A DNA stretch of 64,000 nucleotides, from positions 186,001 through 250,000 of the forward strand of contig NZ_JACHIR010000003.1 of NCBI RefSeq assembly GCF_014203355.1, given 5' to 3'. The notes below the pieces were generated by a model. The model saw only the letters and a program-made list of their open reading frames with translations. It ran no database searches and was not told the origin of the DNA. The stretch is from Kutzneria kofuensis. GTDB taxonomy: Bacteria; Actinomycetota; Actinomycetes; Mycobacteriales; Pseudonocardiaceae. The position numbers and the translations under genes are program-made. Positions 21,810-25,015 of this stretch are shown one piece after another (positions within the stretch are counted from its first letter, which is position 1; each line of letters starts with the position of its first letter).

Positions 21810-22037
21810 CGACCGAGCCTCCTACTAGACACGTGCGGGGCCGACAGACCCCACTCCCACCCTGAACACTCTCGTGTATCCGCCAGTGGCGAAATGCTGC
21901 AAGTAACGGTGCCGAGCACCAGAGTTTGTAGAGATCCCACAAAAGATGACGCCAGTCACAGAGGCCATGGCCGGCCGCCCGGCCGTCCCGGCGTGTCGCG
22001 CTGGACAACCCACGCTGTCGCGGTTCCGAACGCGCAT
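21810..22037. other. Carboxylase upstream region; left flank of the IS element
   Basis: No gene is seen. On the minus strand TTGCAG followed after 16 nt by GATACA (around 21880-21905) could be the carboxylase promoter. The sequence up to 22037 is the left half of the IS target site. Confidence 0.35.
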
Positions 22038-22078
22038 GACGTCCTTATCTTCTGAGTCGGGTCGGTTCTGGTCAGTCG

Positions 22079-22084
22079 TAAGAT
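22079..22084 (+). promoter_or_regulatory. Candidate -10 box for the bridge RNA
   Basis: TAAGAT fits TAnnnT and lies 6-12 nt before the expected 5' end of the structured RNA. No convincing -35 box was found at 17-19 nt. Confidence 0.35.
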
Positions 22085-22089
22085 CAGGA

Positions 22090-22245
22090 AGGCCCGGGGA
22101 CCTCGGGTGTGGCTGTCATGACGGAGCCGTTGGTGTGGCTGGGAAGGATTGGCCGCCCGGGGTCCTGCGACGACTCGGCCGCTGATTGGGATGAGCGAAA
22201 CAATCGCTGCATAAGGACGTGACGGCGAGGTCGTCTGCTGGGTGT
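22090..22245 (+). ncRNA. Candidate IS110 bridge RNA (target- and donor-binding loops)
   Basis: Two consecutive long stem-loops are present. Stem 1 is GGACCTCGGG (22098-22107) with CCCGGGGTCC (22156-22165), one G-U pair. Its loop carries CATGA (22117-22121), identical to the left target plus core, and GAAGGATT (22143-22150), complementary to AATCCTTC at 23519-23526. Stem 2 is GACGACTCG (22169-22177) with CGAGGTCGTC (22226-22235), one bulge. Its loop carries ATTGGGA (22185-22191), identical to the right end of the element, and ATAAGGACGT (22211-22220), complementary to ACGTCCTTAT at 22039-22048. A small hairpin AGCGA-AACAA-TCGCT sits inside loop 2. Order and spacing (21 and 19 nt between guides) agree with described IS110 bridge RNAs. 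Confidence 0.85.
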
Positions 22246-22273
22246 CTGGCACGAACGACGACGGGAGGTGGCC

Positions 22274-23473
22274 GTGCCGCAACTGTGGGCCGGTGTGGAC
22301 GCGGGCAAAGCCCACCACCACTGCGTGGTGATCAACGCCGAGGGCGACAAGATCCTGTCCCGGCGAGTGCCCAACAACGAGGCCGAACTGCTGGAGCTGA
22401 TCGCCGATGTCCGAGCGCTGTCGCCCGACGTGCTGTGGGCGATCGATCTCAACGCCGGCGGCGGCGCGCTGCTGATCGCCCTGTTGGTCAACCACGACCA
22501 GGCCCTGCTCTACATCCCCGGCCGCACCGTCCACCACGCCTCGGCCGGCTACCGAGGATCGGGCAAAAGTGACGCCAAGGACGCGTTCATCATCGCCGAC
22601 CAGGCCCGCATGCGCCGCGACCTGCACCCGATGACCGCCGGCGACGAGATCGCCGTGGACCTGCGGATCCTGACCGCCCGCCGCTACGACCTGACCGCCG
22701 ACCGCACGAGGGCGATCAACCGGCTGCGCGCCCAGATCCTGGAGTACTTCCCCGCCCTGGAACGAGCCTTTGACTACAGCTCCTCCAAAGCCGCGCTGGT
22801 GCTGTTGACCGGCTTTCAGACTCCCGCCGCGCTGCGGGAGTGCGGCCAGGCCGAGCTGGCCACCTGGCTGCGGGCCCGCAAGGTCCGCAACGGCGCCGCA
22901 ATCGCCGCGACCGCGATCGCCGCAGCCCGGGCCCAGCTCACCGCCGTTCCCGGACAGTCCACTGCCGCGGCCATGACGGCGCGGCTGGCCAAGGGGGTGA
23001 TGGCCCTGGATGAGGAGATCGCGGAGACCGACGCCCTGATCGAGGGCCGGTTTCGCCAGCACCGGCACGCCGCCGTGATCCTGAGCATGCCCGGCATCGG
23101 GCCGTTGCTCGGGGCCGAGATCATCGCTCTGACCGGCGGGGATCCGGCCGCGTTCGGCAGCGTTGACCGGCTGGCCGGTGTCGCCGGCCTGGCGCCGGTC
23201 CCGCGTGACTCCGGCCGGGTTCAGGGCAACCTGCGCCGTCCGCGCCGCTACAACCGGCGGCTGCTGCGGGCGTTCTACCTGTCCGCGCAGTACGCCATCG
23301 TCCGGTGTCCGGAGTCGAAGGCCTTCTACGAACGCAAACGGCACGAGGGCAAGGTCCACAAGCAGGCCGTACTGGCCCTGGCGCGTCGACGCCTCAACGT
23401 CGTGTGGGCGCTCGTCCGCGACGAACGAACGTTCCAGCCCCACGTGCCACGACCAGGCAGCGCAGCAGCCTGA
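22274..23473 (+). CDS. IS110-family transposase/recombinase
   Basis: A 399-residue enzyme with an N-terminal RuvC-like (DEDD) domain and a C-terminal Transposase_20 domain. Acidic residues are D9 (WAGVDAGKAHH), D58 (LWAIDLNAGGG, where many relatives have Glu), and D100 and D103 (GKSDAKDAFIIAD). The C-terminal domain has SMPGIGPLLGAEI and the presumed nucleophilic Ser S313 in LAPVPRDSGR. GTG 22274 is chosen: GGAGG is 5 nt upstream, while GTG 22268 would overlap it. There is no frameshift or stop, so the enzyme looks functional. It would recombine the GA cores using the RNA encoded just upstream. Confidence 0.95.
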   Translation: MPQLWAGVDAGKAHHHCVVINAEGDKILSRRVPNNEAELLELIADVRALSPDVLWAIDLNAGGGALLIALLVNHDQALLYIPGRTVHHASAGYRGSGKSDAKDAFIIADQARMRRDLHPMTAGDEIAVDLRILTARRYDLTADRTRAINRLRAQILEYFPALERAFDYSSSKAALVLLTGFQTPAALRECGQAELATWLRARKVRNGAAIAATAIAAARAQLTAVPGQSTAAAMTARLAKGVMALDEEIAETDALIEGRFRQHRHAAVILSMPGIGPLLGAEIIALTGGDPAAFGSVDRLAGVAGLAPVPRDSGRVQGNLRRPRRYNRRLLRAFYLSAQYAIVRCPESKAFYERKRHEGKVHKQAVLALARRRLNVVWALVRDERTFQPHVPRPGSAAA

Positions 23474-23619
23474 CAGGCTCACCGCCTATCACCGCTACCG
23501 CTTGACAACGTCATTGGGAATCCTTCTCGGCCGGGGAACGTTCCGTCTCGGCGCGTCGCCGCGCCCGGCGAGCAGTCTGCCCCGGGAACCTTTAGTGGAT
23601 CTCGCAGTTCGCCCAAGAA

Positions 23620-23655
23620 CGGCTGGGAACTGGATATAACGCCAGTTCCCAGCCG
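23620..23655 (-). terminator. Hairpin after the GH79 gene
   Basis: CGGCTGGGAACTGG / CCAGTTCCCAGCCG is a perfect 14-bp stem with an 8-nt loop, 22 bp past the GH79 stop. No T-tract follows on the minus strand. Confidence 0.65.
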
Positions 23656-23677
23656 GGAAATCAGGGGGCCGTAGGGG

Positions 23678-25015
23678 TCAGTGGGTGACGATCAGGGCCG
23701 CGCTGCCGGCCGGGAGGTCCAGCGTGACGGTCCCGCCGTGCACGGTGGCGTGCCGCGGCTTCGGCGTGAATTGTCCGTTCCTGCCGACGGTGGCGCCGGC
23801 GATGGCGATGGCCGTGGAGTCGAGTGACGGGGCCGTCAGCACGTACTCCTCGGCCTTGTGGGCGGTCGCGGCCAGCTTGACCGTGACGTGGATGGGGGAA
23901 GAGCCGGTGTTGTTCACGATCGCGTTGTCGCCGATGCCCCAGGCCGTCACGTTCGGCGCGCCGCTGACGGTCGCCGCCCGCAGCGAGCCGGCGCCGGCGA
24001 GTGCCCACAGCAGTTGGCCGTAGTAGACGCCCTGCACGCCGGTCGGCGTCAGGCCGTCGAACACGATCGGCGAGTACGCCAGCGGGAACTGGGACGAGGT
24101 GCCGCCGTGGAAGTTCACGCCGTCGCCGTGGTTGGCGGCGATGCCGTGCATGTAGTCCAGCGACCACAGCGCCGCCGCCTGCACGTTGCTCACGCCCGGC
24201 GCGCCGCCGTGGAAGTAGGAGTTGGACTCGGTGATCCGCCACCCCGGCAGGCCGTTGGCGGTCGTCGCCTTGGCCATCGCGGCCTCGTTGTTCGGCAGCC
24301 GGCCCGAGGAGTTGGACGCCAGCAGGCCGGGGATGGAGGCGGTGGTCTTGTTGCCGATGTAGAGGTGCGTGGACAGCAGGCGCAGGCCGTTGTTCTTCTC
24401 GTGCGCGGCGAACGTGCTCGCCCACGACGTCGAGTCGGCCTCGCCGGGGCCGTCGAAGACCGCGGTCGGCACCTTCGCCCGGATCGCGCGGGCGTAGGCG
24501 TCGAAGGCCGTCTCGTAGGCCGATTCGGTGGTGTAGACGTTCGGCTCGTTGCCGATCTCGAACGCGATCAGGCTGCCGCCCAGGGCATGTGCCGCGTACT
24601 CGGCCTCGGCAGCGGCGTTGTCCGGCGTGTTGGTCTTCAGGTTGACGCCGTAGATCACCTTCCAGCCGGTGGCCCGGACGAACGTCGCCAGCCTCGTGAC
24701 GTCGGCGGGCGCGATCTCCTTGTCGGAGCCGCCCTTGCCGGCGGGGTTCCAGTTGACCTGGTCGCCGAGGTTGCCGCCGAGGCGCAGCACGCTCGGGCCG
24801 AGCCGGCGGAACAGTTTCACCAGGTCGGTGTCGTGGGCGTCGAACATGCCGGCGCCGACGCGGTCCTTCTCGTAGCTGAAGCCGGCGAAGCCGCGGTCGA
24901 CATGGCCGCTGGCGGCCTTGGTGATCTCGACCGTCACCGGGGTCGGGGCGGCCGGGCCGGTGGCCAGCACCGTGAGTGAGGCGAGCGCGGCCACCAGGAT
25001 GTGGGCGGGTGCCAT
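23678..25015 (-). CDS. Secreted glycoside hydrolase, GH79-like (beta-glucuronidase/heparanase fold)
   Basis: A 445-residue exported enzyme. Residues 1-20 are a signal peptide (MAPAHILVAALASLTVLATG). A TIM-barrel follows with the acid/base Glu E157 in AFEIGNEPNVY and the nucleophile E263 in WRITESNSYFHGG, then a C-terminal beta-sandwich. This arrangement fits clan GH-A family 79, which removes uronic acids from glycans and proteoglycans. The exact substrate is unknown. ATG 25015 has GGGAG 5 nt upstream. It lies 129 bp from the stop of a large LuxR regulator on the same strand that may control it. Confidence 0.8.
   Translation of the reverse strand: MAPAHILVAALASLTVLATGPAAPTPVTVEITKAASGHVDRGFAGFSYEKDRVGAGMFDAHDTDLVKLFRRLGPSVLRLGGNLGDQVNWNPAGKGGSDKEIAPADVTRLATFVRATGWKVIYGVNLKTNTPDNAAAEAEYAAHALGGSLIAFEIGNEPNVYTTESAYETAFDAYARAIRAKVPTAVFDGPGEADSTSWASTFAAHEKNNGLRLLSTHLYIGNKTTASIPGLLASNSSGRLPNNEAAMAKATTANGLPGWRITESNSYFHGGAPGVSNVQAAALWSLDYMHGIAANHGDGVNFHGGTSSQFPLAYSPIVFDGLTPTGVQGVYYGQLLWALAGAGSLRAATVSGAPNVTAWGIGDNAIVNNTGSSPIHVTVKLAATAHKAEEYVLTAPSLDSTAIAIAGATVGRNGQFTPKPRHATVHGGTVTLDLPAGSAALIVTH

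Follow-up and report, generated by a model that had tools for sequence, protein, structure and literature searches.

An IS110-Family Element of Kutzneria kofuensis Whose Bridge RNA Very Probably Directs It between Shine-Dalgarno Sequence and Start Codon

Introduction

RNA-guided integration has been described for insertion sequences of the IS110 group. According to two reports, the RNA of IS621 from Escherichia coli is encoded in the left end (LE) and comprises a 5′ stem-loop, a target loop and a donor loop, with left guides that match the top strand and right guides that complement it, and the system further includes a dinucleotide core, a promoter formed across the right end (RE) and LE, a handshake position in the target loop and a recombinase (PMC11208160; PMC11208158). 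The handshake guides of IS621 occupy the positions right after the right guides (PMC11208158). ISEc21, also of IS110 type, relies on an upstream non-coding seekRNA that guides insertion and on a joined-end promoter, and its target lies within the transposase genes of some IS3 elements (PMC11187229). IS900 of Mycobacterium avium subsp. paratuberculosis, another IS110-family member, is described as inserting at the motif CATGNNNNNNTCTCCTT without target duplication (PMC8141618).

Here we analyze an insertion sequence in a 64,000-nucleotide stretch of the Kutzneria kofuensis genome, hereafter the window, in which all coordinates are given. It resembles IS621 in the features listed above, the RE/LE promoter being a predicted one and the recombinase homologous, but the core of IS621 is CT, whereas that of the window element and its relatives is TC, GT or GC; in addition, the left target guide of the window element excludes the core and lies at a variable distance from it, and its target is a ribosome-binding site with a start codon, whereas IS110 elements are described at sites such as REP elements (PMC11208160; PMC11208158). 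The upstream guiding RNA and the predicted joined-end promoter are likewise shared with ISEc21, the target of which differs (PMC11187229), and the likeness to IS900 extends to the absence of target duplication, this comparison being made by the published motif (PMC8141618). The mechanism is already known from IS621 and ISEc21; the element itself is new to the IS110 family. Among the matches listed in a search of titles and abstracts of the open-licence literature, none joins IS900 or Shine-Dalgarno targets with bridge RNA, and within the same scope no description was found of a guide RNA encoding a Shine-Dalgarno/start-codon target or of a slack left register. We consider it highly probable that this is an IS110 element whose bridge RNA directs it, via a TC core, between a Shine-Dalgarno sequence and a start codon.

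Recombinase and Element Boundaries

The element carries a gene for an IS110-family recombinase of 401 aa with a GTG start (22268..23473, + strand). Both recombinase domains score above their cut-offs (PF01548, E 1.2e-47; PF02371, E 3.1e-18), as does the NCBIfam model for IS110 RNA-guided transposases (NF033542, 223 bits against a cut-off of 140), and profile comparison indicates homology with the IS621 structure 8wt6 (E 1.4e-13). The candidate DEDD residues D11, D102 and D105 and the candidate catalytic serine S315 are invariant in 15 of 15 proteins, namely that of the window (22268-23470) and 14 relatives. In the alignment to IS621 the serine region aligns, the D102/D105 region aligns weakly and residue 60 is unaligned; this residue, the putative counterpart of the E in the DEDD motif of IS621, is D in all 15 proteins. 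Together with the RNA described below, assignment to the IS110 type with a bridge RNA and two guide loops is supported.

A search of the host's own genome found eight near-identical copies, the window copy included, and these, together with empty sites, place the insertion sequence at 22042..23520 (+ strand; 1,479 bp including one TC core), with non-coding ends of 226 nt on the left and 47 nt on the right. When the eight copies are aligned, the 1,479 bp block has no mismatch in seven and a single mismatch in L008. The block runs from TCCTTATC, beginning at T22042, to ATTGGGAA, ending at A23520, and TC follows; on the right side TCCTTC comes next in 8/8 copies and one more C in 7/8. Positions 22038-22041 read GACG, CGCG, ACGT, AGGA, GTCA, AATC, ATGA and ACGT in the eight copies and are host DNA, because these bases vary from copy to copy.

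Uninterrupted sites of the form left flank-TC-right flank were found in congeneric genomes for four of the eight copies (L001-L004). L001 has four such sites (two with gaps slightly upstream), L002 likewise four, L003 five (gapped at the site itself in three cases) and L004 a single one, which reads GCTCATGAGGATCCTTCCTCCG in the related genome. One of the four empty sites of the window copy, at locus L122, reads CATGACGTCCTTTTCGG, where the initial annotation of this DNA had predicted CATGAATCCTTC. No empty site was found for L005-L008 in related genomes, L008 having been missing from an earlier query. A split of the L005 site over 34 kb elsewhere in the genome was set aside, as by eye the neighbors look like diverged paralogs and not like the sign of another insertion. 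Scarless insertion at a common dinucleotide core is seen in eight copies, four of which have a matching empty site. Neither a circle nor a tandem junction turned up in the assembly.

From the window copy alone, the core position could be anywhere in TCCTT. Inspection by eye of seven relatives (L036, L039, L040, L042, L052, L085 and L087), whose right targets do not begin with CTT, leaves exactly TC in common between donor and target and thereby narrows the core to TC, at 22042..22043 on the left and 23521..23522 on the right.

Bridge RNA, Donor Guides and Core

The aligned part of the bridge RNA, comprising the 5′ stem-loop, target loop and donor loop, occupies 22066..22238 (+ strand). An alignment that took 29 of 35 sequences contains 39 pairs, with 97.8% of cells paired and 11 pairs changed on both sides, each value being reached in 0 of 500 shuffles; over five measures, the fold exceeded all 500 shuffles in four and all but 17 in the fifth. 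Folded alone, the window RNA is slightly better than its shuffles (z -1.76), and a search of 21900-23700 against the 4,227 families of Rfam gave no match up to E 1. A promoter is expected on circularization, with a -35 TTGACA at the right end (23502..23507) and a -10 TATCTT at the left end (22046..22051), spaced by 17 nt in the circle. Across the joined ends of the relatives, TTGAC(A/T), 17 or 18 nt and then TANNNT occur in 29 of 30 loci, TTGACT being seen once.

Guides were compared with flanking DNA across a set drawn from 70 relative loci, of which 40 relatives with the recombinase reading frame were considered and the remaining 30 loci lay outside the parse. Five truncated or odd loci (L049, L068, L073, L074 and L081) were excluded at the outset, and L041 and the own-genome L103 were skipped by the pattern, giving 34 relatives plus the window; four had no right end in reach (L038, L047, L055 and L089), which left 31 loci (the window and 30 relatives). 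Left-side counts are for 30 loci, as the left junction is absent in L056. The parsed relatives share about 64-84% protein identity. L103 (G000:C1:8503700-8508100), in the host's own genome and 69% identical, reads ATTGAGA at the right end as well as in the left donor guide; by eye, its left guide matches 8 of 9 letters including the core, its right guide matches the core plus 2 nt only, and it sits at an apparent start codon of a gene. A diverged IS110-like locus, L104 (G000:C1:3423500-3427400; 65%), adjoins genes that by eye resemble serine recombinases.

In the window copy, the four guide matches drawn by the initial annotation hold letter for letter. ATTGGGA at RNA positions 22185-22191 recurs at the right end (23513-23519), and CATGA at 22117-22121 recurs at 22035-22039; the other two segments of the RNA, ATAAGGACGT (22211-22220) and GAAGGATT (22143-22150), are reverse complements of 22039-22048 and 23519-23526, respectively. 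The guide spacings of 21 and 19 nt are also correct, as is the rule that in both loops the left guide has the letters of the top strand and the right guide is complementary to that strand.

The left donor guide ATTGGGA (22185..22191) matches the left donor, which is the right end of the element (23513..23519), and 30 of 31 loci show such a match over 7 nt or more; L044 and L048 have ATGGGGA in both guide and right end. The right donor guide ATAAGGA (22211..22217), the last GA of which would pair with the core, matches the right donor CTTAT at the left end (22044..22048) together with the core, and all seven letters (right-end core plus five) are matched in 28 of 30 loci, a count that is partly circular because the left ends of the relatives were located with right-donor motifs. 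Both donor guides are broken in L035 (ATGGGGA against ATTGGGA on the left, four letters matched on the right), and the right one also in L095 (four letters).

The right target guide of the window is GGAAGGA (22142..22148), again with its last GA placed to pair with the core. In 31 of 31 loci, the right target guide agrees with the core of that locus and with a further 4-6 nt of the right flank there. The 31 loci hold 20 distinct right guides, and the 222 matched letters compare with a mean of 49.7 and a maximum of 109 when guides are reassigned among loci (0 of 20,000 as high; kinship of the relatives uncorrected), so that the earlier claim of matching beyond chance is borne out. By eye, the right guide is also matched in L038, L041, L049, L073 and L089, outside the 31. 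The cores TC, GT and GC switch jointly in the RNA and the element ends, the right target guide agreeing with the right end in 31/31 loci and the two ends with each other in 28/30. The two exceptions, L069 and L102, show a difference at the second core base between junctions (GT/GC and GC/GT), with guides that agree with the right core, as would be expected if a mismatched target core had segregated after the exchange.

Directly behind the right target guide, TT at 22149..22150 would form a target-loop handshake guide pairing with donor AA (23519-23520). Across the parsed loci, the first letter at this place pairs with the donor next to the core in 30/31 cases and the second in 31/31, with a joint change in two cases (AT with AT) and a single break in L033. 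This explains why GAAGGATT runs two letters into the element. By analogy with IS621, the letters by which the initially drawn matches exceed our guides are likely handshake positions, TT with donor AA in one loop and CG (22218..22219) with the left target of this copy in the other. Support across relatives is good for TT with donor AA and lacking for CG with the left target: the possible donor-loop guide pairs with target position -1 in 13 of 30 loci, a number reached in 2,349 of 20,000 shuffles and hence not significant.

The Left Target Guide and Its Register

The left target guide CATGACG (22117..22123) corresponds to the left target CATGACG in host DNA (22035..22041), the CAT of which complements a start codon. 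The place of the guide word in the RNA is nearly fixed, and the distance on the DNA from CAT to the core ranges from 3 to 7 nt. Among copies of this one element it is 4 nt in L001, 5 nt in L003, L004 and L008, and 6 nt in L002; CAC stands in place of CAT in L006 and L007, and the CAT of L005 overlaps the core. The match is poor in four of the eight copies (five nt in L002 and L005, four nt in L006 and L007), so that the weight of the left guide is uncertain. This variable spacing and these poor matches are what would be seen if the right guide, reading the Shine-Dalgarno sequence, alone picked the site and the left CAT were simply the start codon that is always there.

Three lines of evidence nevertheless make such a passive role unlikely. 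First, the letters beyond CAT track the locus's own guide: for 18 loci with distinct left guides that contain CAT, 35 letters are matched after CAT, against a shuffled mean of 17.2 and a highest shuffle of 34 (0 of 20,000), and over 30 loci the longest words common to a left guide and its flank sum to 189, compared with a shuffled mean of 132.9 (0 of 20,000). Second, left guides that match without CAT near the 5′ end also occur, with CGGTGG in L037, AAAAGG in L036 and TCAAG in L039. Third, CATGACG sites are preferred in the host's own genome. All three CATGACG sites located 0-3 nt before TCCTTC are occupied, and among sites of the form CAT-N4..6-TCCTTC the word CATGACG is present in 3 of 5 filled and 0 of 112 empty ones (Fisher p 4e-5), a count for which spacings were picked post hoc, empty sites were unscreened for gene starts and the eight element right ends were removed.

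By eye, the left guide extends through the core in L036, L037, L042, L046, L052 and L085, which is an IS621-like arrangement. Five of these six loci are not at a start codon with a 50-codon ORF, the exception being L037.

Shine-Dalgarno and Start-Codon Targets

Taken together, the target guides spell a Shine-Dalgarno sequence (GGAAGGA) and a start-codon complement (CATGACG), a target that goes beyond the initial reading of this DNA. On the right, host CTTC (23523..23526) with the core complements the Shine-Dalgarno GAAGGA, as judged from copies, empty sites and relatives. All eight copies adjoin a start codon, GTG in L006 and L007 and ATG in the others, which lies 1-9 nt from the core's far edge and opens a reading frame of 58-488 codons. 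The gap from core to start is 4-7 nt, in one orientation, in 7/8 copies; in L005 the ATG overlaps the core, and this is therefore not a normally spaced Shine-Dalgarno/start site.

A different purpose has been proposed for the siting of IS900, namely that the host Shine-Dalgarno sequence drives an antisense element gene (hed). The window element does have a minus-strand ORF of 508 aa that spans nearly its whole length. GC-rich codon use, however, tends to open that antisense frame anyway, and the codon-aligned antisense frame is stop-free in no more than 17 of 40 relatives, truncated ORFs among these 17, so that a hed-like ORF was rejected as the purpose of the target and we regard this explanation as very improbable.

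Among 29 relatives, a nearby start codon opens an ORF of 50 or more codons in 18 of 19 loci with AGG in the right guide and in 1 of 10 (L051) without it, compared with 24% of random places in the same flanks (p 1e-5, with the AGG grouping made by hand afterwards). L033 and L076 have a Shine-Dalgarno-like or near-Shine-Dalgarno guide, yet no start-codon ORF of 50 codons. A clade from Streptomyces and Kitasatospora (L038, L039, L040, L041, L042, L052, L087 and L089) has both guides and targets shifted to approximately CAAGT-TC-AGTAG: the guide of the re-targeted Streptomyces members is TTCTACTGA, the target reads CAAGT-TC-AGTAG in most, and none of the five parsed members is at a start-codon ORF. 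Several left flanks in this clade are alike and the right flanks are unrelated. In the left flank of L042, a minus-strand open frame that starts no more than ~200 nt from the junction resembles a further IS110-type protein, which suggests neighboring IS110 insertions.

That most parsed relatives, at about 64-84% protein identity, have one target class could also be expected if the recombinase protein, or some property of gene starts, picked the target and the RNA resemblance were a by-product. This is likewise very improbable, as each of 20 distinct right guides fits the target of its own locus and nine of the ten loci whose right guide is without AGG have no 50-codon start-codon ORF. Finally, the initially annotated GA core in an element from 22038 to 23519, with target CAT-GA-ATCCTTC, matches the letters of the window copy but is almost certainly wrong, for in the comparison with other copies and empty sites that the annotation itself had put forward, 22038-22041 vary and so 22039-22041 are not element, the constant block continues past 23519 to A23520, empty sites are without the predicted sequence, and copies, empty sites and relatives together give TC.

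Discussion

On the observed boundaries, TC core, target class and covariation of both target guides and the core with the DNA, a mechanism can be built whose circle, transcription, pairing and chemistry would be those of IS621. The element would be excised as a circle with the junction ATTGGGAA-TC-CTTATC, in which the right-end -35 TTGACA and the left-end -10 TATCTT would join into a promoter that transcribes the bridge RNA from the left end. The donor loop would pair with the joined ends, ATTGGGA A-TC-CTTAT, and in the target loop the right guide GGAAGGA would pair with TC-CTTCC, the Shine-Dalgarno complement, and the left guide, CATGACG, with the side of the start codon. Strand exchange by the recombinase would then take place at the common TC, with insertion expected at CATGACGT-TC-CTTCC. 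As the guides would pair with the Shine-Dalgarno and start-codon sides, the element would land between both in one orientation.

The left end of the element reads ATAAGGA on the gene strand (22042..22048, - strand), a Shine-Dalgarno-like sequence placed before the target gene. Because the left end carries this word, insertion leaves a Shine-Dalgarno-like sequence in place, with AAGGA at the same distance from the start codon. We propose that the element's own AAGGA keeps the target gene translated.

The siting of IS900 bears on this target class. According to Doran in 1997, IS900 reportedly inserts between ribosome-binding site and start codon. In our reading, the published motif CATGNNNNNNTCTCCTT can be taken as a start codon with a Shine-Dalgarno complement, which would be the same kind of target (PMC8141618). 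A broader view would be that of an IS110 lineage whose bridge RNA reads translation-initiation regions through a Shine-Dalgarno right guide and a slack anti-start left guide, whose own Shine-Dalgarno sequence swaps the ribosome-binding site and spares the gene, whose sisters were re-programmed through both guides, and whose existence explains the IS900 motif; we hold the chances for and against this whole picture to be about even.

For practice, placing the core needs more than the guide matches of one copy, since here other copies shifted the core by several bases. The slack left register, if real, is not predicted by the fixed register of IS621 and would matter for the programming of such recombinases. 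The 20 distinct right guides with their targets, together with three cores, form a natural set in actinomycetes, and, if the proposed reading is true, siting of the IS900 type between ribosome-binding site and start codon would be tied to RNA-guided recombination.
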